Below, piece after piece: positions 7,167-38,223 of a stretch of 38,223 bases of DNA. Positions within the stretch are counted from its first letter, which is position 1. Every line of letters begins with the position of its first letter. The notes beneath the pieces were generated by a model that saw only the letters and a program-made list of their open reading frames with translations, searched no databases and was not told the origin of the DNA. This stretch comes from Pseudomonas sp. BGr12 (GTDB lineage Bacteria; Pseudomonadota; Gammaproteobacteria; Pseudomonadales; Pseudomonadaceae), in the NCBI RefSeq assembly GCF_030272895.1, contig NZ_JALRNF010000049.1:1-38223 (forward strand), in the 5' to 3' direction. The position numbers and the translations under genes are program-made.

Positions 7167-8060
7167 ATGCGTGAAATCAGCCTCGACCGCCTGCGCACCC
7201 TGGTGGTGATCGCCGAGCTCGGCTCCTTCGCCCAGGCCGCCCGGGTGCTTAACCTGGCGCCGCCCACGGTCAGCCTGCACATCGCCGACCTGGAAGCGCG
7301 CATCGGCGCGCCATTGCTGTCGCGCAAGCGTGGGCAGATCCAGCCCACCACCATTGGCGAAACCTTGCTCGAGCGCGCGCGCCGCCTGCTGGCCGATGCC
7401 GAGCAGGCACTGGACGAAGTGCAGCGCCAGGTCCAGGGCCTGGGCGGGCGCGTGCGCCTGGGCGCCTCGACCGGCGCCATCGCCCATCTGCTGCCCCAGG
7501 CGCTGGACATTCTCGGTGTGCGGCACCCCGGCATCGATGTGCAGGTGCAGGTGCTGACCTCGCGCGAATCCCTGGTGCGCCTGCAGGACGGCACCCTCGA
7601 CCTGGGCCTGGTGGCCTTGCCCCAGGGCGCGGTCAAGGGGGTGCAGATCCAGCCCTGGCGCCGCGACCCGATCATGGCTTTCATCCCCAGCAGCTGGGTA
7701 CCGCCGGCGCGGGTTACGCCGGCCTGGCTGGCCGACCGCGCACTGATCCTCAATGACAACACCACTCAGTTGTCTCGGGTGACCGGCGACTGGTTCGCCA
7801 GCGCCGGCCTGCAACCGCAGGCACGCATCCAGCTCAACTACAACGATGCGATCAAAAGCCTGGTGGCCGCCGGCTACGGCGCCACCTTGCTGCCCCACGA
7901 AGCCAGCTCGCCGGAGCCGGATGGGCGCCTGTGCATGCGCCCGTTGCGCCCCGGGCTGTGGCGTCACCTGGGCATTGCCAGCCGCGAAGGGCAGGTGGAG
8001 CAGAGCACCCGCTTCGTGCTCCAGGTGCTGGTCGAACTGGCGCTGCAGGCCGGTCGCTAG
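7167..8060 (+). CDS. LysR-family transcriptional regulator
   Basis: A 297-residue LysR-type regulator. The N-terminal winged helix-turn-helix covers residues 1-60 (DRLRTLVVIAELGSFAQAA, then PPTVSLHIADLEARIGAPLL). The periplasmic-binding-like co-inducer domain covers about residues 90-295. Its most likely target is the divergent argC-like gene through the palindrome between them. The co-inducer is unknown. Its stop codon overlaps the stop of the convergent GNAT gene in a shared CTAG at 8057-8060. Confidence 0.88.
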   Translation: MREISLDRLRTLVVIAELGSFAQAARVLNLAPPTVSLHIADLEARIGAPLLSRKRGQIQPTTIGETLLERARRLLADAEQALDEVQRQVQGLGGRVRLGASTGAIAHLLPQALDILGVRHPGIDVQVQVLTSRESLVRLQDGTLDLGLVALPQGAVKGVQIQPWRRDPIMAFIPSSWVPPARVTPAWLADRALILNDNTTQLSRVTGDWFASAGLQPQARIQLNYNDAIKSLVAAGYGATLLPHEASSPEPDGRLCMRPLRPGLWRHLGIASREGQVEQSTRFVLQVLVELALQAGR

Positions 8061-8776
8061 ACCAGGCGAATCGCGGTGCCAGGCTGCCACGGGCCTTCGC
8101 CCAGGCGCTCCAGGGCCAGGGCCTGGGCCTTGCGTTGCAACTGGTCGAGGTGGCGGTCGCGCTGCTTCTCGGCGTCGACCATGGCTCGCTTGCCGTGCTG
8201 CTTGAGCAGGTAGCTGTGAATCTGCTGGATTTCCAGGGTGCGATAGATCGGCGCCACGTCGAGCACCGCCACCAGGCCTGCGCTTGCATGGTCGCGGGTG
8301 TTCATCAGCACCTGTGGCCCGCGCGCGCCGATCACCTGGAAGCCCAGGGCCTCGAAGCACTCCACCTTGCCTGGCGCGCAGGCCAGTTCGGCATGGGGGT
8401 AGCGTGCGGTCATCTGCTGCAGCAGCGCACGGGCGACACCTTGGCGACGGTGCTGGCTGTGCACGGCGAGGTAGGCGACGGTGCAGGCCTGGGGGTCGTC
8501 CTGCAGGGGCAGGTAGAGGAGAAAGCCAATGACGCTGTCCGGATCGTCGACATCGCAGGCGACCACCAGCTCGACCTTGAGCTCACCGGCACCGTTCATG
8601 GCATCCAGGTAGCGATGCACTTCAAAGCCGATGCCGTACTGGTAGAGGTTGTACAGCGGGTTGCTCGGGGGGATGCCGACAGCGCTGATGTCGCTGAGGT
8701 AGTCGACCACCATCTGCAGGATCTGGCTCTTGATCGACTCCCCGGGCGGGGCGACAAAATGGGTGAGGGCGGGCAT
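8057..8776 (-). CDS. GNAT-family N-acetyltransferase
   Basis: A 239-residue protein with an acetyl-CoA-binding GNAT core in its middle: the motif A stretch VAYLAVHSQHRRQGVARALL carries the Q/R-x-x-G-x-A signature, and motif B follows as VECFEALGFQVIG. The long N-terminal part (about 65 residues) and the charged C-terminal helix (DAEKQRDRHLDQLQRKAQAL) are outside the usual 150-residue GNAT fold. The start at 8776 has a GGAG ribosome site. An upstream start at 8827 is less likely. The acyl acceptor is unknown. The gene lies next to the diiron-oxidase operon in opposite orientation, and a link is not shown. Confidence 0.78.
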   Translation of the reverse strand: MPALTHFVAPPGESIKSQILQMVVDYLSDISAVGIPPSNPLYNLYQYGIGFEVHRYLDAMNGAGELKVELVVACDVDDPDSVIGFLLYLPLQDDPQACTVAYLAVHSQHRRQGVARALLQQMTARYPHAELACAPGKVECFEALGFQVIGARGPQVLMNTRDHASAGLVAVLDVAPIYRTLEIQQIHSYLLKQHGKRAMVDAEKQRDRHLDQLQRKAQALALERLGEGPWQPGTAIRLV

Positions 8777-8968
8777 CGGGGCAACTCCAGAACAAATAAA
8801 GGGCCGGTGATTTGGCTTGGGGTGCAAGTCTACAGGTCTACCGGCCTGCTTGCTTGCGACCTTCCATCTTGCGCCCGGGCCATTGCGCTGAACTTCGGGC
8901 AGTGGCGGGCCTCACTTGTTTACAAGGGCGATGTCGCCCGCTGAACCACTGACGGCAGGAACCCGACC

Positions 8969-10315
8969 ATGAGCGTGTCGATTGCATCAACTGTGCAAAC
9001 CGCGGGGCCATGGGAGGCCCGATCTGCGTTGCAACAACGCTATCAGAACCTGCTCCAGGGGGCGGTGGGCGACAGCCATGAATGGCTCCTCGCGCAACTG
9101 CAACGCGCCGAGGCCTTGCCCGATGAGTTGCCAGCCAATCCCGCGGACCTCGGACAGTGGGGCACCCAGCGGGCGGCCGCTGTGGCCCGGCACTATGCCG
9201 ATTACCTGGCCATCCGCAAAGCTGGCGCGCCACGGCGCTATTTCAGCAACCGCGCCCATGCCTTGTACTTTCTCCAGCAGGTAGCGCCGACCAAGGCGGT
9301 GGATGGTGCCTGGTTGTACGGCACCTTGCGTCATTGGCCTGATCCGCGCTTTCACGGTTTGATCCGCACCTACCTGGAGGAACTGGGTGAGGGTGACCCG
9401 GCAAGCAACCATGTGCTGATTTATCGTCGCCTGCTCAGCGAGCTGGGTTGTCACCAGGACTTGCCCCTGAGCGCGGAGCATTACCTGCAGGGCACGCTGC
9501 AACTGGCCCTGGGCTTGAACACCGAGGCCTTTTTGCCGGAGCTGATCGGCTATAACCTCGGCTACGAGCAGTTGCCCTTGCACTTGTTGATCAGCGCCTA
9601 CGAGCTGGATGAGCTGGGTATCGATCCGCACTATTTTCGCCTGCATGTGACCATCGACAACGCCAGCAGCGGCCATGCCTGCAAAGCGCTGCAGGCCTTG
9701 CGGCAGCTGTGGCCGCAGCAGGGCGGCACGCCGTTCTATCAACGTGTGGCCCGCGGTTATCGCCTCAACGACCTGGGGCCGGGGGCACAGGCGATCATCG
9801 ACAGCTTCGATCTCGAAGCCGAGTTGCTGGCCTCCCTGGAGCGCAAGCGCGGGTTCGGCCAGCACATGCACTCGGACTACTGTCGCATCGAAGGGCGCAC
9901 GGTCAATCAATGGCTGGCGCACACCAATCTGCTCAGCGGCTTTCTCGCCGTGTTGCAGCGCAAGGGCTGGATCAGGCGGGACCGGGACCCGGGCCAGAGT
10001 CGTTTCTGGCGATTGGTCGACGGACCGGGTGCAGCCATGTTCGGCGTATTCGACCCTTACGAGAAACAGTTGCTGCATGACTGGATCGCTGGCACCTGGC
10101 AGCCTCTGGCCAAACCAACGCGCATGCCGACACTCAAGGTCGATCCATTGATCGACGATGAGCAGGAACAGGCCCTGGAGGCAACCCTGCAGGCGCTGCC
10201 GCCACAAACCCGCATCGAGCAACTGATCAAGGACATGAGCGGCAACCGCCATGCCTTGCCCCGTGGCCTGTGGGCGACGCGCCGGTTCGCGCAGATGACC
10301 GGCTTGCACCGTTAA
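8969..10315 (+). CDS. Haem-oxygenase-like diiron oxidase (HDO) family protein
   Basis: A 448-residue protein of the iron-containing redox enzyme family (haem oxygenase-like fold, relatives UndA, SznF, FlcD, BesC). Characterised members use two irons and O2 for N-oxygenation, C-C cleavage or desaturation. The expected ligand pattern is present: EELGEGDPASNH (Glu137/138, His148), then GYNLGYE (Glu200), then LHVTIDNASSGH (His226, Asp230, His236). About 190 residues follow the metal domain, with no motif I recognise apart from a helical KRGFGQHMHSDY stretch (residues 293-304) that adds more histidines. It is the first gene of a three-gene operon, with the methyltransferase starting 10 nt downstream. 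The substrate is unknown. Confidence 0.85.
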   Translation: MSVSIASTVQTAGPWEARSALQQRYQNLLQGAVGDSHEWLLAQLQRAEALPDELPANPADLGQWGTQRAAAVARHYADYLAIRKAGAPRRYFSNRAHALYFLQQVAPTKAVDGAWLYGTLRHWPDPRFHGLIRTYLEELGEGDPASNHVLIYRRLLSELGCHQDLPLSAEHYLQGTLQLALGLNTEAFLPELIGYNLGYEQLPLHLLISAYELDELGIDPHYFRLHVTIDNASSGHACKALQALRQLWPQQGGTPFYQRVARGYRLNDLGPGAQAIIDSFDLEAELLASLERKRGFGQHMHSDYCRIEGRTVNQWLAHTNLLSGFLAVLQRKGWIRRDRDPGQSRFWRLVDGPGAAMFGVFDPYEKQLLHDWIAGTWQPLAKPTRMPTLKVDPLIDDEQEQALEATLQALPPQTRIEQLIKDMSGNRHALPRGLWATRRFAQMTGLHR

Positions 10316-10325
10316 GGAGCGCACG

Positions 10326-11276
10326 ATGCTACTGGACCAGGTTCAACGTCAGGCCGATCAGGCCCTGCTGCAACTGGGGAGGCGGCTGCAGGCCGACGGC
10401 TACCGCTTTACCTGCGTAACGCCCTTGACCCAGCATCGCAACAATATTCGTGCCGGGAACGAACAGGCGCAGACCCTGCGCGATATCTTCGGTTGGAACC
10501 GGGCGTTCAACCCGGCCGTGCTATCGGCGGACGAACGGGCGCAGATGCAACGGGCAGGTATCGTCGAACACCTGGGCGACCTCTGGCGCAGCCGGGTGCG
10601 CTGGTCGAACCTGGGAACCTTGCTACTGGTGCATTCAAGCTACCCTACCGACAGCGTCGATGCCGTGTTCTTCGGCCCCGACAGTTATCGCTTTGCCCGG
10701 GTCATCGAAGCCCACCTGCGTGAGCGTACGACCGCCCTCGACCATGCCGTGGATATCGGCTGCGGTGCCGGCATTGGCGCGTTGCTGATCGCCCGGGCAC
10801 GGCGTCATGCCCAGGTCTGTGCCCTGGACATCAACCCCCGGGCCTTGCGTCTGACCGCGATCAATGTTGCCCTGGCGCAACTGGCCAATGTCTCGGTGGA
10901 GCACAGCGACGTGCTCGATGGCGTGACCGGACGGTTCGACCTGATCGTTGCCAATCCACCCTACATGCTCGATGCCGGCGAACGTGCCTATCGCCATGGT
11001 GGTGGCGTCCTGGGCGAACAGCTGTCGCTGCGTATCGTCGAGCAAGCCTTGCCGCGCCTGGCGCCGGGCGGCACCTTGCTGCTGTACACAGGTGTTGCCA
11101 TGGTCGAGGGCCGTGACCCTTTCCTGGCGCAGGTGCAAGGTACCCTGGTCGATCCGCGCTGGGCCTGGCGCTACGAGGAGCTGGACCCGGATGTGTTTGG
11201 CGAACAACTGCTTGAACCCGGCTACCAGCAGGTCGAGCGGATCGCCGCGGTGATGCTGTGCGTGACGCGACGATGA
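10326..11276 (+). CDS. SAM-dependent methyltransferase with NPPY motif
   Basis: A 316-residue class I methyltransferase. An N-terminal helical region (1-135) precedes the Rossmann core: SAM motif I is VDIGCGAGIG (142-151), the acidic motif II residue is in CALDINP, and motif IV is VANPPY (208-213). NPPY marks enzymes acting on a planar nitrogen, as in adenine, guanine or glutamine-amide methylation (HemK, RlmG). In this setting a small-molecule nitrogen or oxygen is as likely as RNA or protein. It has a strong AAGGAG ribosome site and overlaps the ligase gene by ATGA. Target unknown. Confidence 0.85.
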   Translation: MLLDQVQRQADQALLQLGRRLQADGYRFTCVTPLTQHRNNIRAGNEQAQTLRDIFGWNRAFNPAVLSADERAQMQRAGIVEHLGDLWRSRVRWSNLGTLLLVHSSYPTDSVDAVFFGPDSYRFARVIEAHLRERTTALDHAVDIGCGAGIGALLIARARRHAQVCALDINPRALRLTAINVALAQLANVSVEHSDVLDGVTGRFDLIVANPPYMLDAGERAYRHGGGVLGEQLSLRIVEQALPRLAPGGTLLLYTGVAMVEGRDPFLAQVQGTLVDPRWAWRYEELDPDVFGEQLLEPGYQQVERIAAVMLCVTRR

Positions 11277-12379
11277 CCAGGCCTTGTACCTTCGGCATCG
11301 AGGAGGAGTACCTGCTGGTGGAGCTGGCCAGCGGCCAGGCAGTTGCCAGGCCCGGGGCCGGCATCATCGCGCTGTGCCGCCAGGTGCTGGGCGCGCACTT
11401 CGCCCAGGAGATGTTCCGCAGTCAGATCGAAGTGGCCTCGCCGGTGTTCGACAGCCTGGCCCAGGCCAGTGATTTCCTCCAGCACCGCCGCAAGCAACTG
11501 GCCAGGGCGCTGGCGGCCGAAGGCATCGGACTGCTCGCCGCGGGCAGTCACCCCATGGGCGGCTGGCGCCAACAGCAACCAGCAGACGGGGCGCATCATC
11601 GGCAACTGTTCGAGGACTACCAGCAGGTCGCACGCCGAAGCCTGTTGTGTGGCCTGCATATCCATGTCGGGGTGGCGCAAGGCGTTGACCGGATCAGGTT
11701 GATCAACCAGTTGCTGCCCTGGACACCCCTGTTGTTGCTGCTCAGCGCATCATCGCCTTTCTGGGAAGGCGAACCCAGCGGCTACCAGAGTTACCGCCGG
11801 GTCGCCTGTGGAGAGTGGCCGCACATGGGGCTGCCGGAACGCCTCGGCGACTGGCAGGCCTACCAGCGTTACCTGCAGCTGCTACGCCGTACGGGATCGC
11901 TGCGCGAAGACAACGATTTTTGGTGGGCCGTTCGCCCGTCGCGACGCTTCCCTACGGTGGAGTTGCGGATCGCCGATGCCTGTCCCCGGCTTGAGGATGC
12001 GCTGTGCATTGCCGGTGTGTTTCGCCGCATGGTCGAACATTGCCTGAACCACCCGCAGGACGCTGCGCTGACCCGTGAGCAGTACTGGATCGCCGGGCAG
12101 AACTACTGGCGTGCCATGCGCCATGGGCGCCATGGCCCGTACATCTGTCTGCCGGGTGAGGGGCAGGGCAGTGCGCAGCAATGGCTGGCGCAGGCGCGGC
12201 AGCGCTTCGACGCCGGGCCCTGTGACAGCGAGCGCAGTTTTGACCGGGCCGAGCAGATCTTGCGCGAGGGCACCAGTGCCGACTGGCAACTGGCGACGTA
12301 TGAGCGTTGCCAGCAACGGCCGCAGGGGGCGTTGCTGGCGGTGGTCGAGGGGTTGGTGGCAATGACGGGGTGTTGTTGA
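11273..12379 (+). CDS. YbdK-type carboxylate-amine ligase (GCS2 family)
   Basis: A 368-residue member of the glutamate-cysteine ligase type 2 family, which uses ATP to join a carboxylate (often the gamma-carboxyl of glutamate) to an amine. Visible motifs are FGIEEEYLLVE (residues 7-17), FRSQIEVAS (48-56), AAGSHPMGGW (89-98), the metal-binding CGLHIHVGV (126-134) and FPTVELRIADACP (226-238). The start ATG at 11273 overlaps the stop of the methyltransferase gene as ATGA, which indicates translational coupling. The E. coli relative YbdK has weak glutamate-cysteine ligase activity. Here the enzyme more likely serves whatever product the operon makes. Confidence 0.88.
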   Translation: MTRPCTFGIEEEYLLVELASGQAVARPGAGIIALCRQVLGAHFAQEMFRSQIEVASPVFDSLAQASDFLQHRRKQLARALAAEGIGLLAAGSHPMGGWRQQQPADGAHHRQLFEDYQQVARRSLLCGLHIHVGVAQGVDRIRLINQLLPWTPLLLLLSASSPFWEGEPSGYQSYRRVACGEWPHMGLPERLGDWQAYQRYLQLLRRTGSLREDNDFWWAVRPSRRFPTVELRIADACPRLEDALCIAGVFRRMVEHCLNHPQDAALTREQYWIAGQNYWRAMRHGRHGPYICLPGEGQGSAQQWLAQARQRFDAGPCDSERSFDRAEQILREGTSADWQLATYERCQQRPQGALLAVVEGLVAMTGCC

Positions 12380-12399
12380 TCTGCGACCGTGGCGGCCTC

Positions 12400-12472
12400 A
12401 TCGCCGGCGATGCCGGCTCCCACATCCCCTGTGGGAACCACCGCTTTTGTGGGAGCTGGCGTAGCCAGCGAT
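12400..12472. repeat. REP pair, family B
   Basis: ATCGCCGGCGATGCCGGC followed by TCCCACA (12400-12424) faces TGTGGGAGCTGGC followed by GTAGCCAGCGAT (12448-12472) in inverted orientation. It lies between the converging ligase and tautomerase genes and ends 4 nt before the tautomerase stop codon. Confidence 0.8.
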
Positions 12473-12476
12473 AGCC

Positions 12477-12686
12477 TTACCCCGATCGCTCGCGCTTGCG
12501 CAGCGCCGTCACCGTCTCGCCGCCGACCCCCCAGTTGTCGGTGGGCACTTCTTCGATGACCACGAAGGTCGAGGCTGGCGGCTTGTTCAGTACCCGATAC
12601 AACAGCTCGGTAGTGCCTTCGATCAGCTCGCGTTTCTGTTCGGCGCTGACGCCTTCCTGGGTAACCCGGATGTGTACATAAGGCAT
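12477..12686 (-). CDS. 4-oxalocrotonate tautomerase-family protein
   Basis: A 69-residue small tautomerase. After removal of the initiator methionine the N-terminal proline (MPYVHIRVTQEG) becomes the catalytic base of the family. The segment QKRELIEGTTELLYRVL and the FVVIEEVPTDNWGVGG stretch are typical of 4-OT subunits, which form hexamers. Family reactions are keto-enol tautomerisations, and the substrate is unknown. It lies 20 nt downstream of the SDR gene on the same strand, so the two are probably one transcript under the divergent LysR regulator. Confidence 0.88.
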   Translation of the reverse strand: MPYVHIRVTQEGVSAEQKRELIEGTTELLYRVLNKPPASTFVVIEEVPTDNWGVGGETVTALRKRERSG

Positions 12687-12706
12687 GACAGTCTTCCTCC
12701 GTTTGC

Positions 12707-13447
12707 TTACCAGACACCGGTGGCTGAACCGCCGTCCACGGCGATCACGGTACCGGTCACGAATGTCGAGTCGGTCAGGTACAGCACCGCATCGACCACA
12801 TCCTCGGGCTTGCCGATCTGCCCGGTGGGCGCCAGGGCCTTGAGCGCTTCGCGGGTCTGCGGGTCGTCGCCATGCAGCGGGGTGTCGATGATCCCCGGGG
12901 CCACGGCATTGACCTGCACCTGCGCAGGCGCCAGTTCCAGCGCCAGGGCACGTACCGCCTGGTTCAGGCCGCCCTTGATCAGCACCGGCAGCAGCGCCGG
13001 CACCTTGCTGTTCGGTTGCAGGGCGATGGAGGCGGTGATCGAGACGATATGCCCGGCGCCATTGGCGGCCATGTGCTGAGCGGCGACCTGCGCCGGGTAG
13101 ACGAAGCCCTTGAGGTTGGTATCGACGATAGCCTCGATATCGGCCGGCGTGTAGTCGGCCACCGGCTTGGCGATGAAGATGCCGGCGTTGTTGATCAGGA
13201 TATCCACCTTGCCGAAGGCTTCGATGGCCTGGTCGAACAGCTTGCGTGCGGTCTCGGGCCGGGCGATGTCGCCTTCGACCAGCAGGAAGTTGGCCGGGTT
13301 GCCCAGGGACGCCGCAGCCTCTTGCAGGCGGGCCAGGGTGCGGGCGTTGCCGACCACATTGTCGCCGCGCTCAAGGTAGGCCTTGGCGATGGCGAAACCC
13401 AGGCCGCTGGAGGCGCCGGTGACGATGACGGTTTTGGCTGTGTGCAT
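12707..13447 (-). CDS. SDR-family protein lacking the catalytic tyrosine
   Basis: A 246-residue protein with a short-chain dehydrogenase/reductase fold: cofactor motif TGASSGLG (10-17), structural NNAG (86-89), a serine region SITAS (136-140), Lys158 and VNAVAPGIIDTP. The tyrosine of the YxxxK catalytic pair is missing. The residue four before Lys158 is Pro154 (ALLPVLIKGG). Either another residue replaces it or the protein is not a classical oxidoreductase. Length and C-terminus (VDGGSATGVW) are otherwise normal. It is co-directional with the tautomerase gene and divergent from a LysR gene. Confidence 0.85.
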   Translation of the reverse strand: MHTAKTVIVTGASSGLGFAIAKAYLERGDNVVGNARTLARLQEAAASLGNPANFLLVEGDIARPETARKLFDQAIEAFGKVDILINNAGIFIAKPVADYTPADIEAIVDTNLKGFVYPAQVAAQHMAANGAGHIVSITASIALQPNSKVPALLPVLIKGGLNQAVRALALELAPAQVQVNAVAPGIIDTPLHGDDPQTREALKALAPTGQIGKPEDVVDAVLYLTDSTFVTGTVIAVDGGSATGVW

Positions 13448-13542
13448 GATCGAGTCTCCGTAAAGCCGGGCGACAGGTCCGGCTGATGGAGCTCAGGTTA
13501 ATTGGCAAGCAGGTCTTGAAAAATGGTGTGAATGTAATTTGA

Positions 13543-13564
13543 ATTGATACCTGGTGTAATCAAT
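13543..13564. promoter_or_regulatory. Inverted repeat before the second LysR gene
   Basis: ATTGAT (13543-13548) and ATCAAT (13559-13564) form a perfect 6-bp inverted repeat with a 10-nt spacer, 9 nt before the LysR start codon in a divergent promoter region. Its size and position suit an autoregulatory LysR site. The assignment is inferred. Confidence 0.45.
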
Positions 13565-13573
13565 GAGGTGCTC

Positions 13574-14485
13574 ATGACCCGGGTATTCGACGATCTGCAA
13601 CTGGGCAGCATCGAGCTGTTTTGCCTGGCGGCCGAAACCGGCAGCTTTACCGCCGCCGCCAACCAGGCCGGGGTCACGCCGGCGGCGGTCAGCCGTTCGG
13701 TGGCGCGCCTGGAAGAGCGCCTGGGCGTGCGATTATTCGTGCGCACCACCCGGCAGATGCGCCTGACCGAGGGCGGACGCGGCTACTACGAGCAGTGCCG
13801 GCAGGCGCTGACCCAACTGATCGATGCCGAACGCGAAGTCAGCGGCGCCCAGGCGGTGCCGGCGGGTTTGCTGCGCATCAGCCTGCCCACGCCCTATGCC
13901 CATTACCGCCTGCTGCCGCGCCTGCCACAATTTCGCCAGCGCTACCCGCAGGTGCGTATCGACGTGCATGTCAGTAACCGCAATATCGATTTTGCCGAGG
14001 AGGGCTACGACCTGGCGATCCGTGGGCGCGCACCGGCCGATTCACGGCTGGTGGCCCGGCGCCTGGAGGAGGCCGAGCTGGTGGTGGTCGCCACCCCCGA
14101 CTACCTGCGTCGCGCCGGCATCCCAGCCACGCCGGACGACCTGCTCGGGCATGAGTGCATCCAGTTCGAACTGCCCAGCACCGGGCGCACCACGCCCTGG
14201 TCGTTCCAGGTCGCAGGCAAGTGGGTCGAAGTGCAGACCTCGGGCAGCTACACCTGCCTGGAGGATTTTCTCGCCACCGCCACCCTGGTGAAATACGGCG
14301 CCGGGCTGATGCAGGCCTACCGCTTCACCGTGCAGCAGGAGCTGGACAGCGGCCAACTGGTCGAGGTGCTCGGCGACTATGGCGGCACCTCGCGGCCCTT
14401 CATGCTCATCTACCCCCATGCCCGGCATGTGCCGTTGCGGGTCAGGGCGATGATCGATTTTCTGTTGCAGGGCGAGGCTGGGTGA
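13574..14485 (+). CDS. LysR-family transcriptional regulator
   Basis: A 303-residue LysR-type regulator. The helix-turn-helix region reads LGSIELFCLAAETGSFTAAA then TPAAVSRSVARLEERLGVRLF, and the substrate-binding domain runs from about residue 90 to the end. The YDLAIRGRAP and LVARRLEEAELVVVATPDYL stretches are typical of the large CrgA-like subgroup that controls adjacent oxidoreductases. ATG 13574 has GAGGTG upstream. It is divergent from the SDR and tautomerase genes, its likely targets. Its last 44 nt overlap the end of the convergent GlxA-type gene. Confidence 0.87.
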   Translation: MTRVFDDLQLGSIELFCLAAETGSFTAAANQAGVTPAAVSRSVARLEERLGVRLFVRTTRQMRLTEGGRGYYEQCRQALTQLIDAEREVSGAQAVPAGLLRISLPTPYAHYRLLPRLPQFRQRYPQVRIDVHVSNRNIDFAEEGYDLAIRGRAPADSRLVARRLEEAELVVVATPDYLRRAGIPATPDDLLGHECIQFELPSTGRTTPWSFQVAGKWVEVQTSGSYTCLEDFLATATLVKYGAGLMQAYRFTVQQELDSGQLVEVLGDYGGTSRPFMLIYPHARHVPLRVRAMIDFLLQGEAG

Positions 14486-15428
14486 AGCGCGCCCGGTAGT
14501 CGCTGGGGGTGACGCCCAGGCGGCGCACGAAGGCCCGGCGAAAGCCGTCGATGTTGGCGTAGCCCACCGCGTCGGCCAGACGCTTCAAGGGGATATCCGA
14601 CTCTTCGACCAGGCGCCGGGCACTGTCGATGCGCGCCAGCTCCACGAACTCGGCCGGGGTGGAGCCGGCCTCCAGCTTGAACACCCGGGCGAAGTTGCGC
14701 TCGCTCATGCCGGCGCGGGCGGCCAGGGCCGGGACGCTGAGGTCGTCCTTGAGGTGGGCCAGTATGTAGGCCTGCACGGCGCTGATGGCCGATTTTTCGG
14801 CGGTCTGCGCCGCCAGGTGGGCGCTGAACTGCGACTGGCCACCGGGGCGCTTGAAGAACATCACCATTTCCCGCGCCACCCGCAAGGCCAGCTCGCGGCC
14901 GTGGTCTTCCTCGACCATGGCCAGGGCCAGGTCCATGCCCGCAGTCACGCCCGCCGAGGTGTACAGGCTGCCGTCCTTGACATAGATGCTGTCGGCCTCG
15001 ACCTCGGTGTCGGGGTTTTCCCGGGCCAGGCGCGCGCTGCTGTTCCAGTGGGTGGTCACCCGCCGTCCGCGCAGGATGCCGGCGGCGGCCAGGGCGAAGG
15101 CACCGGTGCACACTGAGCCGATGCGTCGTACCGAGCCTGCCTGGCGTTGCAGCCATTGTTGCAGGGCCGGGTTGCCGACGATCTCGTCGATTTGCGGGCC
15201 GCCGGCCACCAGCAGGGTATCGAGCCTGGCCTTGTGGGTGTCCACCGTGGCGTCCACCGCCAGGCGCAGGCCGCTGCTGGTCTTGATCAGGCCGGGTTCG
15301 GTGCCGATCACCTCGACCCGGTAGGCGCGGGGGTTGCCCAGTTGTTTCGCCGCTTCGGCGAAGACATCGGCGGGGCCGACGATATCCAGCATTTGCACAC
15401 GGGGAAAAGCCAGAAGGGCGATGCGCAT
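14442..15428 (-). CDS. GlxA-family (DJ-1/PfpI + AraC) regulator
   Basis: A 328-residue regulator. Residues 1-190 form a DJ-1/PfpI-like glutamine amidotransferase domain (LLAFPRVQMLDIVGPADVF, LVAGG, and the nucleophile-elbow-like SVCTGAFALAAAG with a cysteine). Residues about 215-315 hold the two AraC helix-turn-helix motifs (VPALAARAGMSERNFARVF and LKRLADAVGYANIDGFRRAF). Such proteins sense small metabolites through the amidotransferase-like domain, and the ligand is unknown. Its 3' end overlaps the LysR gene tail by 44 nt in convergent orientation. It is divergent from the SLAC1/TehA-type channel gene, its likely target. Confidence 0.87.
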   Translation of the reverse strand: MRIALLAFPRVQMLDIVGPADVFAEAAKQLGNPRAYRVEVIGTEPGLIKTSSGLRLAVDATVDTHKARLDTLLVAGGPQIDEIVGNPALQQWLQRQAGSVRRIGSVCTGAFALAAAGILRGRRVTTHWNSSARLARENPDTEVEADSIYVKDGSLYTSAGVTAGMDLALAMVEEDHGRELALRVAREMVMFFKRPGGQSQFSAHLAAQTAEKSAISAVQAYILAHLKDDLSVPALAARAGMSERNFARVFKLEAGSTPAEFVELARIDSARRLVEESDIPLKRLADAVGYANIDGFRRAFVRRLGVTPSDYRARFTQPRPATENRSSP

Positions 15429-32385: not shown

Positions 32386-33456
32386 TTAGCGGGGCTTAGG
32401 TGCAGCGACCGGGGTGAAATGTAGGGAAGCAGGCAGCGGTCGACCGGTGATAGGGTCGAGTTGTTTGTCGTTGGCCAGTTTGCGGATCAGCGTCTCGTCG
32501 GGCTTTGGCGGCGGAACGTTGGCCAAGCGCTCTTCCAGCCATTGTAGCTTGCCGTCCCAGGGCGGCAGCTTGACCGGAGGCAGGGGGACGATTTCGTTGA
32601 TTTCGGGGACTTTGGGGTTGGCGTAGGAATAGCCTGCTAACACATTCCAGATTTTCTCGTAGCGATCGGCACGCTCATCATCTTTTTGCTGAGATAAATA
32701 ATCTATTACATCGTCCGGTTGAGGAACACGAAAAGCATCGGACAAACGAGAAGCTGCGCTCTCGTGTCCTGCAGCTACACCTAGTTGGAATACTTCAAGT
32801 GCATCTTGGTATTGCCTCATTCCCTTTAAGTTGACCCCTAAAGCTACAGTCGCTTTTCCATGACCTTGCTCCGCAGCACACCGGTGCATCCGGCGGGCAA
32901 TATCGGGAGCGATATCGCTCGGTGCCAGCTTTTCTGCAATGTAATATTGCGCTTCGGCGTTACCTTCATCTGCTGCCTTGCGGTAGTAGCGCAGCGCCAT
33001 TTCTTGGTCTTGCTTCAAGCCAGCCGAACCTTGTTGCAAGAAGATGGCAACAAAGTAATAGCCTGTTGCCACACCTGCGTCGATTAACTGCTGACTAAGG
33101 CGAAGGTTTTCAGCGCCACGAAGTTTGAAATGACCGCGTATGGCACCGTTCTGCAGGTTGATGCTGGCTTTATGATGACCCTGCTCAGTAGCGATGCGGT
33201 ATAACCTCTCGATCTGCTCGTCGACGCTCTTGTCCTGGTTGAGCTGATTGTTCTTTTGCAACCAGCGTGCGTGCTGGAAGAGGATGTCAGCCTCAGCTGG
33301 TGGCGCAGGTATTCTTTCGTGCACACAGCTGAAAGCGAGCTTGGCATTGATAGTACCGAGGGCGGGCACCGCTACATGTTTTTTCGCTTGGACCAAAGCA
33401 TTGCCGTTGTCACAAGCAGCCAGCAACAGGCTTGAAAGTAGAAGGCCCCGGCGCAT
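32386..33456 (-). CDS. Sel1-repeat lipoprotein, likely Tle5 immunity protein (intact copy)
   Basis: A 356-residue lipoprotein. Residues 1-14 are a lipoprotein signal with lipobox LLAAC (Cys15), so the protein should be anchored in the envelope. Sel1-like helical repeats follow, among them RLYRIATEQGHHKASINLQ (about 85-103) and ALRYYRKAADEGNAEAQYYIA (about 154-174). A proline-rich tail follows (VPLPPVKLPPWDGKLQWLEE). The ATG at 33456 gives the proper signal peptide. An earlier one would add 13 charged residues. It is a paralogue of the frameshifted gene just upstream. Tandem immunity paralogues behind a PLD effector are known for P. aeruginosa PldB. The immunity role is inferred from that layout. 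Confidence 0.8.
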   Translation of the reverse strand: MRRGLLLSSLLLAACDNGNALVQAKKHVAVPALGTINAKLAFSCVHERIPAPPAEADILFQHARWLQKNNQLNQDKSVDEQIERLYRIATEQGHHKASINLQNGAIRGHFKLRGAENLRLSQQLIDAGVATGYYFVAIFLQQGSAGLKQDQEMALRYYRKAADEGNAEAQYYIAEKLAPSDIAPDIARRMHRCAAEQGHGKATVALGVNLKGMRQYQDALEVFQLGVAAGHESAASRLSDAFRVPQPDDVIDYLSQQKDDERADRYEKIWNVLAGYSYANPKVPEINEIVPLPPVKLPPWDGKLQWLEERLANVPPPKPDETLIRKLANDKQLDPITGRPLPASLHFTPVAAPKPR

Positions 33457-33481
33457 CAGGTTATGCCTTCCAGGGCGGTTT

Positions 33482-34772
33482 TCACGCTTCACCATAGAAG
33501 CACCAACGGATCGTTTCTTCGTTTGTCGTAACCCTGTCAGAAAGCGGCCAAAGGCGTCGGTGGCTACGCTGAACCACCAGCTTGGGCATCGACTCGCCTT
33601 GTTTGAACAGGCGAATGCCACCATCGCTGGCGGAAGCTGCATACCCGAATGTCAGACCAACAGCTTCCCAGTAGCCGCTCTGTGGACAGGCTTGGCCGCT
33701 GTTGCACATTAGAGGGACCCCCGTGGCCTTGATGAAATGGGGGGAGGCAGGCAACGGCCGACCGGTGGCGGGGTCGAGTTGTTTTTCGTTGGCCAGTTTG
33801 CGGATCAGGGCCTCGTCGGGCTTTGGTGGCGGGACGTTGGCCAGGCGCTCTTCCAGCCATTGCAGCTTGCCGTCCCAGGGCGGCAGCTTGGCCGGAGGCA
33901 GGGGAACGATTTCGTTGATTTCGGGGACTTTGGGGTCGGCGTAGGAGTAGTTGGCGAGGATGCGCCAGATTTTTTTGTAGCGGTCGGCGCGCTCAAGATC
34001 CTCTTGTTGGCCGAAGTAGTGCAGATCATCTGACGGATCCGGTCCGCGAAAACCGTCGTCCAAGTAGCCGGCAGCACTTTCGTCGCCTGCGGCTACACCC
34101 ATTTGTAATACTTCCAGAGCCTCTTGAAAATTGCCCTTTGTCTGCAAGTTCACAGCTAGTGCTACAGCCGCTTTACCATGCCCTTGTTCTGCTGCACAAC
34201 GGCGCATCTGACGAGCAATGTCCGGAGCTATACGGACTGGAGCCAATTTTTCGGCAACATTATATTGCGCTTGTGCGTTCCCCTCATCAGCTGCCTTTCG
34301 AAAGTAACGCAGAGCCATTTCCGAGTCCTGCTTTAATCCGGCGGAGCCTTGTTGTAGAAAGTACGCTACAAATAGGTAACCGGTGGCCACGTTTGCACCG
34401 ATCAGTTGCTCGCTCAAGCGTAACTGCTCTTTACCCCGCACCTGGAAGTGGCCGCGCATGGCGCCATTTTGTAAATTGATATTGGCCTTGTAATGATAAT
34501 GTTCAGTAGCAATGCGATACAGCCGCTCTATCTCAGCGTCGACGCTTTTTTCCTGCTTGAGCTGATTGTTTTTTTTGCAGCCAGCGTGCATGCTGGAATA
34601 GAATGTCGGCCTCATTTGGGGGGGGGATTTGCTCGTGTTTGCAGGTAAATGACAGTTTTGTTTTAATCTCAGTAAGCGGATCCATCACAGCGCCTTTCTT
34701 CGAGTGGGTTAAATCAAGGCCGGCATCACAGGCAGCCAACAGTAAAAATGAACACAATGGAATCCAACGCAT
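33482..34772 (-). pseudogene. Sel1-repeat lipoprotein, likely Tle5 immunity protein, frameshifted
   Basis: The N-terminal part (34772 to about 34570) reads MRWIPLCSFLLLAAC (lipobox, Cys15) to ADILFQHARWLQKK, and then the frame runs out into a 79-residue product. The remainder continues in another frame from KNNQLKQEKS through Sel1-like repeats to the stop at 33482. The break is at an A8 tract (T8 at 34569-34576 on the plus strand). The paralogue has 7 nt there (TTCTTTT), so one extra base explains it. Corrected, the protein has 429 residues, with about 75 C-terminal residues (from GVPLMCNSGQACPQSGYW) that the intact copy lacks. It may be a true mutation, a phase-variable tract or a sequencing error. 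Its start codon overlaps the PLD stop by one base (TGATG). Confidence 0.8.
34569..34576 (-). other. A8 homopolymer at the frameshift
   Basis: Eight T on the plus strand (eight A in the message) fall in the codons for Gln-Lys-Lys-Asn. In the paralogue the same place reads TTCTTTT, with a C interrupting the run. A run of this length is prone to slippage in replication and transcription, so some full-length protein could still be made. Confidence 0.7.
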
Positions 34773-36673
34773 CAGTCGAGGTTCTTCAGGATTGCTTCGT
34801 TGTAAATGAATTCAATCAAAGGGGCGTAAGGTGAAAATTCTTCCTTTTTATAGTCCTTATTTTTATTGATTATTACCTGCCACTCTTTGAATGCCTCTGC
34901 CGGATCATCCTGTGCTCCCTTATTATCGGTATGCAACCTCCACAACTCCCGCCGCAACGCCTGAGTCTCACTCGCCCACTCATGGGCAATATTCAACTCA
35001 CTATCGACCAGCATGCTGCGCTCATTGATATTGGCCGAGCCGAGGGTGGTGAACACATCGTTGACGATCATCAACTTGGAGTGGATGTACACCGGCATCC
35101 AGGGTTTTCCGGCGGGCGAGTCGGGGGCGACCAGGGAGCACACATGGATCTTCAGGCCAGGGATCGGCTCCGGGGTGATGGTGCTTTCTTCGATTTCCCT
35201 GATCTTGTCCTTGAGGACGGCTTGCCGCCAACGACTATCGTCGAAACGTTGCTGCCGGGCGTCTTTGGCCTTGCCGCTCGCGTCACCACCACCTAGCGCA
35301 TCGGTGAGGCTCGTCAGGGTGATCAGGGCCTGCATTTCAAGCATCTCGGCCAGGGTCATTGCCTCTTTGTCTGCCTGGGCCTGCACCTGCTCGATGCGTC
35401 GCAATTTGGTGACCTGGGGCATGGTGTCGGCGCGACCGAGGCTTTCCAGCATGCGCTGGGTGTTCACCGTCCCTGCGCCAATGCCGTCGTCGGTGGCGTT
35501 GGTAATCACGAACAGGTGCAAGGCGCCGTGCAGGCCGGGATCGCGTCCTGCGCGGGTCTGGACGGCGGCCGCTTGCTTGATCGCCTCGGCCAGGGGCGGC
35601 CAGCGAAAGTACTGGTTCTCGATGTAGATGAACTGGGTCGCGTTGTTGATGGCCTTGAAGTGCAGTGCCTGGATATCGCACTTGCCGTCCTGTGGCTGGG
35701 TGCGGACCAGTTGCACGAGTTGCTCGGTGGCCCCGGGCATGCATTGAAGTTGCGGCCCGACTTGCCTGGCCTGGCGCAAGGCGAACAGGTCTTCGCCGGT
35801 CTCCTTGCGCCAGGCCGTGGCGAAGTTGTGGTGCAGGTGTTCGAGGATCGGCCCGCTGACCCGGCTGGAAATATCCTGGCGGGGCGTGTCGCCCCGTGGG
35901 CCTCGGTTGGGGGCAGGCTTGGCGTCTTCCGAGCGGTTCAGCGCTGAGTGATCGTCGGTGTCCCAGTACTCGTCAAGCATGTTGTGGCCCATGACGAAGC
36001 CGACAGCACTGTCCTCCAGCTCGTAGTCGACCAGCACAGCCTTTTGATGATGGGTCGGTGCGATGGTCATGGCGAAATTGGTGTCAAGGCTGAGCTGCGG
36101 ATCAAGGCTTTTGTAGCGTGCCTGGTAGGCAATTTCGGCCCGCTCGAAGAGGCTGAAGCCACGACCGACGAACACCGGAATGTTCCGCTCTGCACGAAGC
36201 GCTGCGGCCATGTTGTCGGGCATGGCGCAGAGGTTGAACCATTCGCGGTCATAGGCGTATTGCTCCTGTGTAGAGCGTTGCAACGCCCGATCCCAAAGGC
36301 GGAACGGTCCCTTGCCGGGCAGGTTGGCTTCGCCACCAATCCCGGCACTGTTGAACGGAAATTCCCAGCCGAGGATACGCACCGCCACCCCTTTGCGGGC
36401 TTTGGCCATCAGCAGTTCGCCAATGCAGGGGGCGCTGCCGTCCCTGATGAAGTACATCGATGGCTGGAAGCCCCAGCAGATGATGTCGATGGACTTTTTC
36501 GCCTGGGCAATGGCCTGGTGCACGGCCCTGAAGGCGACTTCGCCATTGATCAGGGGCTCAAAGGCCGCCGCCGCCGGAGGGTATTCGGTGTTGATCAAGT
36601 ACCAGGGCGATGAACACGTCGCCTGCTGGGTGTGCTGGAGTGCAAGTGGCACAACGATCTCGGGCTGACTCAT
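34772..36673 (-). CDS. T6SS phospholipase D effector (Tle5-type)
   Basis: A 633-residue PLD-superfamily enzyme with two HKD motifs. The first is HHQKAVLVD (His209, Lys211, Asp216) followed by GHNMLDEYWD. The second is YIHSKLMIVND (His531, Lys533) followed by GSANINERSML. In the second motif the usual first Asp is Asn538, with Asp539 next. No signal peptide is present, as expected for cargo delivered by VgrG. The family hydrolyses phosphatidyl-ethanolamine and related lipids in the target membrane (Tle5, PldA/PldB in P. aeruginosa). Its start overlaps the vgrG stop as ATGA (36670-36673), and its stop overlaps the immunity start by one base, so the three are coupled. Confidence 0.9.
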   Translation of the reverse strand: MSQPEIVVPLALQHTQQATCSSPWYLINTEYPPAAAAFEPLINGEVAFRAVHQAIAQAKKSIDIICWGFQPSMYFIRDGSAPCIGELLMAKARKGVAVRILGWEFPFNSAGIGGEANLPGKGPFRLWDRALQRSTQEQYAYDREWFNLCAMPDNMAAALRAERNIPVFVGRGFSLFERAEIAYQARYKSLDPQLSLDTNFAMTIAPTHHQKAVLVDYELEDSAVGFVMGHNMLDEYWDTDDHSALNRSEDAKPAPNRGPRGDTPRQDISSRVSGPILEHLHHNFATAWRKETGEDLFALRQARQVGPQLQCMPGATEQLVQLVRTQPQDGKCDIQALHFKAINNATQFIYIENQYFRWPPLAEAIKQAAAVQTRAGRDPGLHGALHLFVITNATDDGIGAGTVNTQRMLESLGRADTMPQVTKLRRIEQVQAQADKEAMTLAEMLEMQALITLTSLTDALGGGDASGKAKDARQQRFDDSRWRQAVLKDKIREIEESTITPEPIPGLKIHVCSLVAPDSPAGKPWMPVYIHSKLMIVNDVFTTLGSANINERSMLVDSELNIAHEWASETQALRRELWRLHTDNKGAQDDPAEAFKEWQVIINKNKDYKKEEFSPYAPLIEFIYNEAILKNLD

Positions 36674-38223
36674 TGTGTCTTTCCTTTTTTAGTCGCTGAA
36701 TTTTCCATAACTGCGGCATACAAGCCGCGGTGGTCCGTATGCGAGTCGGGTTGGCTCAACTCGGCATCGGGTTGCGAGGGATGGTTGTGTAACCCCTGAT
36801 TGGCCAGGTGCCCTTGCTCGACATTGCTGTACTCGTCCGGCACCGGTATGCGGAAGGTCACGCCATTGGCCATCTGCAAGTGGTAGTGACGGGTCACCAC
36901 CTGATGTTCGATCGACAGTTGCCCGCTGGCGTCCAGCACGCCTTTCTGCAATACGCCGCCGTCGGCGACGAGGGTGTAGGGCATGCCGGCCCAGGCCGCG
37001 TGTGGGGCATTGGGGGCCTGGGGGATGTTCAGCTTTACGCGTTGCGGCTGCACCTGGCGCTTGGGGTAGTCCGGGTGCGTGGCGGTCATGCTCGCCGGGC
37101 CGCTGTAGTCGAAGTGCGCCGACTTGACCGCGTAGTCGCCCGCCGTGCCCGATTCGATGCGGCCGGCATCGAGGGTGATGTAGCTGCCACCGGCATTGAG
37201 GGTGATCTTTTTCTTCGCCGTGAGGCGGATCTCGTCTTCGCTGCTGATGATCTCCAGGCCATGGCGGGCCAGCAGTTGCAGGCTGTCGTTCTGCGCCTGG
37301 ACACAGACCGGGCCCTGGTTGGCCACCAGCTTGATCCCCAGCTTGCGCACGAACAGGCTCAGGCCCTGGCCGACGCCGATGAACAGGCGCTTGACCACGC
37401 TGAGGTCGGCGGCGCCGCCGGCGTTGAGCATCAGGTTGTGCCGGGCCGCCAGTTGCAGGTGCGCGCCGCTGGTGAGGGCAATACCCTGTGGCGCGCTGAG
37501 CAGCAGCACCGAGGCCTTGAGCTCGTCGAGCTGCTCGCGCAGCAGGGCGATCTGCGCGGCCACGTCGGCCGGTTCGGCCTGGCTGGCCTGGGCATCGACG
37601 CTGAGCGCTTGCAGTTGCTCGCCGGCCTGTTGCAGCCGCTCCCGTGCCGCGTTCATTTCCAGCACCGGGCCCTGGGCCTTGGGCTGCTCGTCAGCACTGA
37701 TGAACAAGCCCTTGCCCGCCCGGAGCGCGCCCCAGCCATCGCTGCGCAGCTCAAAGCCTTCTCCGCGCTTCTGCTTATTGCCATCGACCAGGTGCCCGAG
37801 GTTCAACTGGCTCTTGCCACTGTGCTCGGTGCTGAGCTTGATGTGCTCCTGGCCCCGGGTGTCGTCCAGGCGCAGCTTGTTGTTGGCCGGGGTGCGCAGC
37901 ACGTTGCGCTTGTAGTTGCGCAGGCTGACGTGATCCGGGTGCTGGTCGTCGTGCAGGGCGTGGGCGATGTAGGGGCGGTCGGGGTCGCCCTGCTCGAAGG
38001 CCACCGCCACTTCGGTGCCGGCCAGCAGCGGCAGGTGCAGGCCGTGGGTGTCGCCGGCATAGGGCCGCGCCAGGCGCAGCCACAGGCTTTCCTCGCCGAG
38101 CCGCCAGCTGTCGCGGTCGAATAAAAAGCGCACTTTGTAGCGGCCCTGCAGGTCGATGTGGCCGTAAGGGTCGTTGGCCCGCGTGCTGCTGACCCGCGCC
38201 GGCACGGTGCCGGCGATCTGCGG
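36670..38223 (-). CDS. vgrG: VgrG T6SS spike protein (5' end outside window)
   Basis: The 517 visible C-terminal residues of a VgrG. First comes the gp5-like OB-fold (YGHIDLQGRYKVRFLFDRDS, LARPYAGDTHGLHLPLLAGTEVAV), then GDPDRPYIAHALHD and the NKLRLDDTRGQEHIKL region typical of VgrG. A coiled-coil-like stretch follows (LEMNAARERLQQAGEQLQAL...). After it comes a DUF2345 beta-prism (ISSEDEIRLTAKKKITLNAG), then a C-terminal extension of about 150 residues, including a transthyretin-like strand region (MPYTLVADGGVLQKGVLD) that in other VgrGs docks the effector. The frame is open to the end of the window. It immediately precedes and overlaps the PLD gene, so it is the probable carrier of that effector. 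Confidence 0.93.
   Translation of the reverse strand, partial: PQIAGTVPARVSSTRANDPYGHIDLQGRYKVRFLFDRDSWRLGEESLWLRLARPYAGDTHGLHLPLLAGTEVAVAFEQGDPDRPYIAHALHDDQHPDHVSLRNYKRNVLRTPANNKLRLDDTRGQEHIKLSTEHSGKSQLNLGHLVDGNKQKRGEGFELRSDGWGALRAGKGLFISADEQPKAQGPVLEMNAARERLQQAGEQLQALSVDAQASQAEPADVAAQIALLREQLDELKASVLLLSAPQGIALTSGAHLQLAARHNLMLNAGGAADLSVVKRLFIGVGQGLSLFVRKLGIKLVANQGPVCVQAQNDSLQLLARHGLEIISSEDEIRLTAKKKITLNAGGSYITLDAGRIESGTAGDYAVKSAHFDYSGPASMTATHPDYPKRQVQPQRVKLNIPQAPNAPHAAWAGMPYTLVADGGVLQKGVLDASGQLSIEHQVVTRHYHLQMANGVTFRIPVPDEYSNVEQGHLANQGLHNHPSQPDAELSQPDSHTDHRGLYAAVMENSATKKGKTQ

Follow-up and report, generated by a model that had tools for sequence, protein, structure and literature searches.

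Heme-oxygenase-like dimetal oxidases (HDOs) constitute a superfamily of more than 10,000 members, of which about a dozen have a proven function (PMC13108848). In the biosynthesis of streptozotocin an arginine-guanidino methyltransferase precedes the HDO, the N-methyltransferase SznE working with the HDO SznF (PMC11705231), and in a published case the N-oxygenation of guanidine falls to a heme N-oxygenase of the YqcI/YcgG type, which takes the place of the SznF HDO domain (PMC10849742). In Pseudomonas, the HDO MboA stands beside the amino-acid ligases MboC and MboD in the mangotoxin system, whose product derives from an arginine-containing tripeptide (PMC13185094), and FlcD and FlcE, both HDOs of family PF14518, belong to the fluopsin C system of P. 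aeruginosa (PMC11363339). The storage polymer cyanophycin is rich in arginine: every side chain of its aspartate backbone carries one, and cyanophycinase frees beta-Asp-Arg from it (PMC10206079). Here we describe an operon located in a 38,223-nt stretch of DNA from Pseudomonas sp. BGr12 (contig NZ_JALRNF010000049.1), which was analysed as a whole and is called the window hereafter. The operon encodes an HDO, a class I S-adenosylmethionine (SAM)-dependent methyltransferase and a GCS2-type carboxylate-amine ligase. The HDO and the methyltransferase, joined here by the ligase, almost certainly form a functional module. The best explanation as a whole, which we put forward tentatively, is that this module is induced by stress and would tailor arginine or an arginine-containing isopeptide.

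The three genes are arranged in tandem on the + strand between positions 8969 and 12379, as given by the open reading frames and their profile matches. The HDO gene (8969-10315) encodes a protein of 448 amino acids that matches Haem_oxygenas_2 (PF14518, E 1e-28), with a score of 100.8 bits against a cut-off of 28.9. After 10 nt, read from the sequence, it is followed by the gene of the HemK/AerE-like methyltransferase (10326-11276; 316 amino acids; MTS, PF05175, E 1.8e-17). The ligase gene (11273-12379; PF04107, E 4e-63), of the YbdK/PRK13515 family, starts within an ATGA overlap, its ATG lying at 11273 and the TGA stop of the methyltransferase at 11274-11276. The alternative start in the list of open reading frames, a GTG at 11258, was judged less likely because the 4-nt overlap recurs in five relatives. 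The tight order described in an earlier interpretation made from the DNA letters alone (the sequence-only reading) was verified in both its 10-nt gap and its ATGA overlap, and the operon is confirmed as real and correctly read. NCBIfam returned no model for the HDO and none near its cut-off for the methyltransferase.

The association between the genes was analysed in 99 genomes spread over the Pseudomonadaceae. A strong HDO match (E <1e-100) was found in 40 of them, with a weak one in a further genome, and a strong methyltransferase match (E <1e-90) in 39, the next best being at E 7e-11. The pairing is far from chance, since all 39 methyltransferases adjoin an HDO; in a single genome, G028, the HDO occurs with no methyltransferase. 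The ligase adjoins the HDO in 11 of the 40 cases. Where the flanking DNA gave enough room (105 loci), the methyltransferase is found beside the HDO in 101 and the ligase in 47 (38 downstream, 9 divergent upstream). Of the four loci without a called methyltransferase, two (L026 and L101) are without the gene and one (L059) has it in broken form; in L116 the gene is present and was missed by the gene caller. The 105-locus set excludes L001-L010; wider stretches replace six of the nine non-window genomes, and the three loci dropped (L006, L008 and L009) each carry both the methyltransferase and the ligase. The pairwise distances of the HDO, methyltransferase and ligase proteins agree closely over 41 loci (Mantel r 0.93-0.95), and the presence of the ligase amounts to six changes on a tree of 57 HDOs. 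The agreement of distances shows co-inheritance of the ligase, not function, and argues that the ligase was inherited with the pair and then lost or moved, instead of being randomly recruited. The core is the pair of HDO and methyltransferase, and the ligase is a frequent but optional third partner. Hence, the co-occurrence of the three families across Pseudomonas, on which the sequence-only reading depended, is borne out, and its three-gene set of undescribed function stands as a co-inherited set of enzymes in which the ligase is not obligatory.

The window HDO and some of its neighbours (8057-15428) resemble loci of the P. vranovensis/P. putida type, the HDO at about 75 percent. A distant HDO type, at about 54 percent and with a divergent ligase, is carried by a genome listed under the same species (G017, locus L119) and by loci of the same genus (L118, L126-L129). 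Either horizontal exchange or a misplaced contig would account for this mismatch.

The metal-ligand residues that the sequence-only reading had named were all found in the window HDO, and E137, E138, H148, E200, H226, D230 and H236 are invariant in an alignment of 59 HDOs. Six of them, E138 and H148 (9380-9412), E200 (9566-9568), and H226, D230 and H236 (9644-9676), all on the + strand, fit the E-H-E-H-(D/E)-H ligand motif of HDOs (PMC11363339). In 184 partly overlapping related stretches E200, H226 and D230 are present without exception, and H236 is kept in 182, as is the full six-ligand set, both deviants being one second-copy HDO sampled twice. These data support an intact two-metal ligand set in the window HDO. 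The second copy, from genome G718 (L149/L163), has lost E137, E138, H148 and H236 and probably does not bind two metals.

The same six positions correspond in kind and in first spacing to E215, H225, E281, H311, D315 and H318 of SznF (PMC11705231), the 10-residue spacing of the first pair being that of E215/H225 in SznF and of E181/H191 in FlcD. The window HDO differs from SznF in having no cupin domain, Haem_oxygenas_2 being the only domain found by Pfam, and the ligase in the operon and the stress-type promoter also set it apart from SznE/SznF. In FlcD, residues E181, H191, E244 and H274 are similarly spaced, but its last two ligands are lost (V278, R281) and E244 does not bind iron (PMC11363339), whereas the window HDO keeps all six residues. 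The mangotoxin system shares with the window an HDO beside an amino-acid ligase; however, MboC and MboD are ATP-grasp enzymes and not of the GCS2 type, and the window has a methyltransferase and no MboB-like reductase (PMC13185094). When the sequences of solved structures were searched with the HDO and with its profile, only a weak match was obtained, 9pfw, a protein of 306 amino acids of the same kind (E 0.26 and 0.47). The sequence-only reading had proposed that the pathway is undescribed, and in the searches made no close homologue with an assigned pathway was found.

The methyltransferase carries the catalytic motif NPPY at residues 210-213 (10953-10964, + strand). NPP is present in 159 of 159 stretches, the next residue being Tyr in 153 and Phe in 6. 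In this methyltransferase family the NPPY motif suits a planar nitrogen. The closest solved sequences are a gentamicin methyltransferase, which we take to be GenN, and 7rc2/7rc3, presumably AerE, a side-chain amide N-methyltransferase of ribosomally synthesized and post-translationally modified peptides (RiPPs). Among the five solved structures shown, 7rc3 gives the longest alignment, which spans from FxGPDSY to the NPP region. A relative of the methyltransferase is on record from P. alloputida (P0215).

The ligase scores above the cut-offs of the NCBIfam carboxylate-amine ligase model NF010039 (419.5 bits, cut-off 371) and of TIGR02050 (334.1 bits, cut-off 176.4), and its residues 3-294 align with the solved homologs 1tt4 and 1r8g. 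It differs from other YbdK/PRK13515 ligases in its location in an operon with an HDO and a methyltransferase. In an alignment of 43 operon ligases of at least 330 amino acids, from which shorter sequences were dropped, E15, E17, E51, E58, H134, H136, R226, E235 and R237 are invariant, and eight of these nine Glu, His and Arg positions are identical in 1tt4, where E51 is replaced by Asp. Over 67 ligase stretches, deviations at the positions tested occur only in six paralogs not linked to an HDO (L120-L125). These paralogs have lost conserved residues, E17, H134 and R237 among them, and are possible pseudo-enzymes. They stand beside a 76-amino-acid gene and a gene pair which we take to be a RES-Xre toxin-antitoxin.

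The consensus of AlgU (sigma-22) promoters is GAACTT-N16/17-TCtgA (PMC10651043), and a similar one is given in PMC7641640. In the window, the -35 element GAACTT (8890-8895, + strand) is an exact match, located by comparison with its nearest relatives, L011 and L012, which share the site, and 16 nt after it the -10 element TCACT (8912-8916, + strand) is a partial match to TCtgA. The pattern GAA[C/T]TT-N17-TC is found upstream of the HDO in 47 of 90 loci and its N16 form in 5, other spacings between 8 and 27 nt giving at most 6 and the opposite strand at most 1 at any spacing. Both forms together account for 52 loci, versus at most 6 in shuffled controls. N17 stands above the background and N16 by itself does not. 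Since the spacers form 22 groups more than 5 nt different, the pattern is more than mere sequence identity. GAACTT-N15-18-TC alone occurs in 13 of 91 upstream regions, versus a mean of 1.0 and at most 4 in shuffles. A looser -35 pattern was not relied on, as its N17 form (63 of 90) has a high background (N13 35, N16 33), so the promoter claim rests on the relaxed pattern with spacing control. Being related, these loci are not independent samples. We consider an AlgU-type promoter upstream of the operon quite probable, our estimate being slightly lowered by the N16 spacing of the window, and the operon is likely to be under AlgU control.

A small lipoprotein gene lies between the promoter and the HDO in 26 of the 90 loci by a strict motif and in 29 by a looser one; even the latter did not detect it in the window or in 61 of the 90 loci. 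In L011 and L012 the promoter site precedes this gene (GCFDR...SKPSLQM), and the HDO follows. Over window positions 8890-8968, both the promoter and the sequence immediately ahead of the HDO start match L011/L012, with the lipoprotein gene missing between them, which looks like a deletion. In loci of the P. putida type (L025, L029, L045, L063, L075 and others) the gene before the lipoprotein ends in ...KGGRS and is followed by what by eye is a hairpin-like repeat; this protein ending is presumably like that of the KGG/YciG stress proteins. Of 105 loci, 33 encode LigD and 27 encode Ku within six genes of the HDO, the arrangement not being the same throughout, and genes for hemerythrin, MgtC and DUF4142 are also near some HDO loci. 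These neighbours fit a stress role, with the loci again not independent of each other. Term look-ups in the main texts of two stress-regulon papers (PMC6372562, PMC9436044) revealed no mention of the gene set.

Outside the Pseudomonadaceae the methyltransferase can be followed with other partners. In a phylum-wide search of 398 genomes, 18 had an ortholog at E up to 1e-30, and six of these 18 belong to other families; with three further methyltransferase-based searches included, 14 outside loci were obtained. The same HDO adjoins the methyltransferase in two of these (L115 and the divergent L141) and an HDO of another PF14518 subfamily in five (L158, L159, L161, L164 and L143). The latter were all identified by homology and have all six ligands, with Pfam E values of 3e-40 to 2e-43 in the three tested; that of L143 (HDO2) was hidden from gene calling by an antisense extension of the gene for cyanophycin synthetase (CphA). 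In a further locus, L142, the methyltransferase lies, on one strand, between a GntA-type heme guanidine N-hydroxylase in front (NF041366, 235 bits, cut-off 145) and an EgtD-type methyltransferase behind. The pairing with an HDO survives a change of the HDO partner, as the five loci with the other subfamily show. In genome G656 both HDO and methyltransferase are kept, far apart. The stretch of L142 (genome G519) also holds a manganese catalase, and its gene row possibly encodes a pathway of its own, leading to an amino acid that is both methylated and N-oxygenated.

The HDO is found in 67 of 245 genomes of f184, the family of G656, which may be Burkholderiaceae-like, and it occurs there with cyanophycin genes, among them those for CphA and cyanophycinase (CphB). 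In a short-range view of about 1.5 kb each side, restricted to the 30 best-scoring loci of 69 matches, CphA was matched in 16 and the methyltransferase in 6. All 16 CphA loci come from genus g287 and are the whole of its 16 loci among these 30. In a wide view of 21 hand-picked loci from eight genera (20 retrieved, plus L162), CphA or CphB was found in 12, from three of the genera (g287 8/8, g728 3/3, g702 1/1). Seven of the 12 have the layout HDO-CphA and three the layout HDO-methyltransferase-IaaA-CphB-CphA. There is one case each of HDO-methyltransferase-CphB-CphA-like, with overlapping reading frames from the methyltransferase on, and of HDO-CphB-CphA-like. These clusters (CphA, CphB, IaaA) resemble the window in containing an orthologous HDO, plus the methyltransferase in g728 and g702, and differ from it in their cyanophycin genes. 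The CphA of L162 and L211 and the CphB of L204 and L211 score above their model cut-offs; L204 and L207 have shortened CphA-like proteins, that of L204 scoring 501 bits versus 850; the IaaA homologs from L198 and L211 clearly belong to PF01112 but lie far under the equivalog cut-off; and the methyltransferase match of L213 falls in two reading frames. The other cyanophycin proteins of the wide loci were assigned by tblastn similarity. The g287-type HDOs cluster together in the tree (97/98), with L204 and L211-L213 placed elsewhere, and L143, which belongs to another class, has the methyltransferase and its HDO of the other subfamily divergent from CphA-CphB. We count about three or four separate associations with cyanophycin genes. 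By a rough estimate, with one or two cyanophycin loci per 5.5-Mb genome, a random gene would lie within 17 kb of one in well under 1 percent of cases. A survey of cyanophycin clusters lists CphA1, cyanophycinase and dipeptidases, and its main text has no word starting with oxygenase or redox (PMC10206079).

From the gene set, the active-site residues, the near-obligate pairing, the co-inheritance of the ligase, the promoter pattern and the cyanophycin membership of some relatives, we infer stress induction, a substrate, an N-oxygenation, an order of steps and a product as follows. Envelope or osmotic stress would switch on the operon through the AlgU-type promoter. The ligase would couple the amino acid to Glu or Asp through an amide on the side chain, in the role that CphA has in some relatives. 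CphA forms amides on the side chain of aspartate, and GCS2 enzymes form amides of the gamma-glutamyl type, so in Pseudomonas the place of the ligase may be held by GCS2. The methyltransferase would methylate a planar nitrogen, guanidine or amide, of arginine or of an Asp/Glu-Arg isopeptide, and the HDO, with its two-metal site and O2, would oxidise the same molecule. An arginine-type substrate is favoured by the cyanophycin link, by the swap of the HDO for GntA and by the precedent of YqcI/YcgG for SznF, and with our estimate slightly lowered because all 16 short-range CphA neighbours come from one genus, we regard arginine or such an isopeptide as an even proposition. N-oxygenation would be the most likely reaction of the HDO, although as a definite assignment it is doubtful. 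In its widest form the proposal is of a conserved proteobacterial stress module leading to an N-methylated and N-oxygenated arginine or isopeptide, which in some members of f184 would be made, stored or recycled with cyanophycin, as a tailored polymer or dipeptides, and in Pseudomonas, with GCS2 replacing CphA, would be a small side-chain amide; the whole of this scheme is rather unlikely to be right in every part.

Several observations weigh against an arginine module under AlgU control. The window promoter combines N16 spacing with an incompletely matched -10, the pattern is lacking from 38 of the 90 upstream regions, and the strict AlgU -10 occurs in 2 of 91, no more than in shuffles (mean 1.5). 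The ligase is absent beside most HDO-methyltransferase pairs. Five of the 14 outside methyltransferase loci (L144, L157, L160, L165, L166), three of them on stretches under 4 kb, have no oxidase beside the methyltransferase in the DNA examined, and the weaker HDO relatives from a class-wide search (L093-L097) show no methyltransferase within the 3-4 kb examined. The GntA partner is known from a single locus, in whose genome no match to the window HDO was found by a search that would miss the other HDO subfamily. Neither CphA nor CphB is present in the nine hand-picked wide loci from the other five f184 genera, and the g287 cases of CphA may be one event. CphA and CphB likewise found no match in the 38-kb window or in the Pseudomonadaceae loci examined, so that the link to arginine is borrowed from other families. 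Finally, HDOs catalyse many reactions besides N-oxygenation.

Other roles were weighed against the same evidence. The operon might be a classical specialised-metabolite cluster, whose three enzymes would together produce a small diffusible compound (a volatile, chelator or N-oxidised toxin). The characterised HDOs come mostly from natural-product or cofactor pathways (PMC13108848), and mangotoxin is made by an HDO, ligases and few other genes (PMC13185094). However, genes for a carrier, an exporter or resistance are absent from the operon, the retention of the pair in 39 of the 99 family genomes is more like that of a housekeeping accessory, and the promoter is of the stress type and the neighbours of the stress or cyanophycin kind; we consider this explanation unlikely. 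The volatile or chelator product suggested by the sequence-only reading found no support, and a stand-alone secondary-metabolite cluster is disfavoured by the core of two genes, the optional ligase, the stress-type promoter, to which the window copy is a partial match, and the cyanophycin clusters in some genera of another family. Without amounting to proof, these features speak for a metabolism of arginine or isopeptides in cells that are stressed or storing, rather than for an antibiotic or a volatile.

The cyanophycin clusters themselves lend some weight to nitrogen salvage, in which the HDO and the methyltransferase would help to break down arginine or beta-Asp-Arg from cyanophycin or protein, with no product made for its own sake. 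In L211-L213 the pair is accompanied by cyanophycinase and by a homolog of beta-aspartyl peptidases (PF01112), in L204 by cyanophycinase, and in L207 cyanophycinase accompanies the HDO. Nevertheless, a SAM-consuming methyltransferase and an ATP-dependent ligase suit building better than breaking, and the Pseudomonadaceae loci examined are without a cyanophycin gene; salvage is in our judgement quite unlikely. The release of formaldehyde, considered in view of a zinc alcohol dehydrogenase near some loci, was judged weaker.

The synthesis of a thiol or antioxidant resembling glutathione or ergothioneine, through a gamma-glutamyl amide of Cys or His that is then methylated and oxidised, was also judged weaker and is improbable. 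The GCS2 family includes EgtA-type enzymes, an EgtD-type histidine methyltransferase adjoins the methyltransferase in L142 and the promoter is of the stress type, but the best ligase match is PRK13515/YbdK and the EgtA model TIGR03444 matches weakly, at 20.3 bits, far under its cut-off of 370.8; moreover, the ligase is absent beside most of the pairs and EgtD occurs in one locus only. A RiPP-like role, with the methyltransferase and HDO acting on a peptide or protein, perhaps the small lipoprotein whose gene lies upstream in relatives, could draw on the alignment with 7rc3 and on the 26 to 29 loci with that gene, but is very improbable, the lipoprotein not having been found in the window or most loci and no leader-peptide or maturation genes having been seen.

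Elsewhere in the window, on the - strand at 32386-34591, two similar adjoining open reading frames both have KNNQL..KSVD..IERLYRIATE near their start. Their codon-usage scores are low for their length, and large open reading frames adjoin them at 34772-38223.

HDO pathways with a ligase are already known, as in the mangotoxin system (PMC13185094). In the open-access literature searched, no description was seen of a fixed methyltransferase partner, of an AlgU-type promoter or of an association with cyanophycin, nor of oxidation and methylation tied to cyanophycin-type nitrogen metabolism and a stress response. An HDO of this type is present in 40 of the 99 sampled Pseudomonadaceae genomes and is tied to one methyltransferase across several proteobacterial families. 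The operon yields named candidate substrates, arginine, beta-Asp-Arg and gamma-Glu-Arg, and points to a possible undescribed way of modifying arginine-type molecules. If the arginine link is true, oxidation and methylation would be added to cyanophycin-type nitrogen metabolism, both tied to the stress response.

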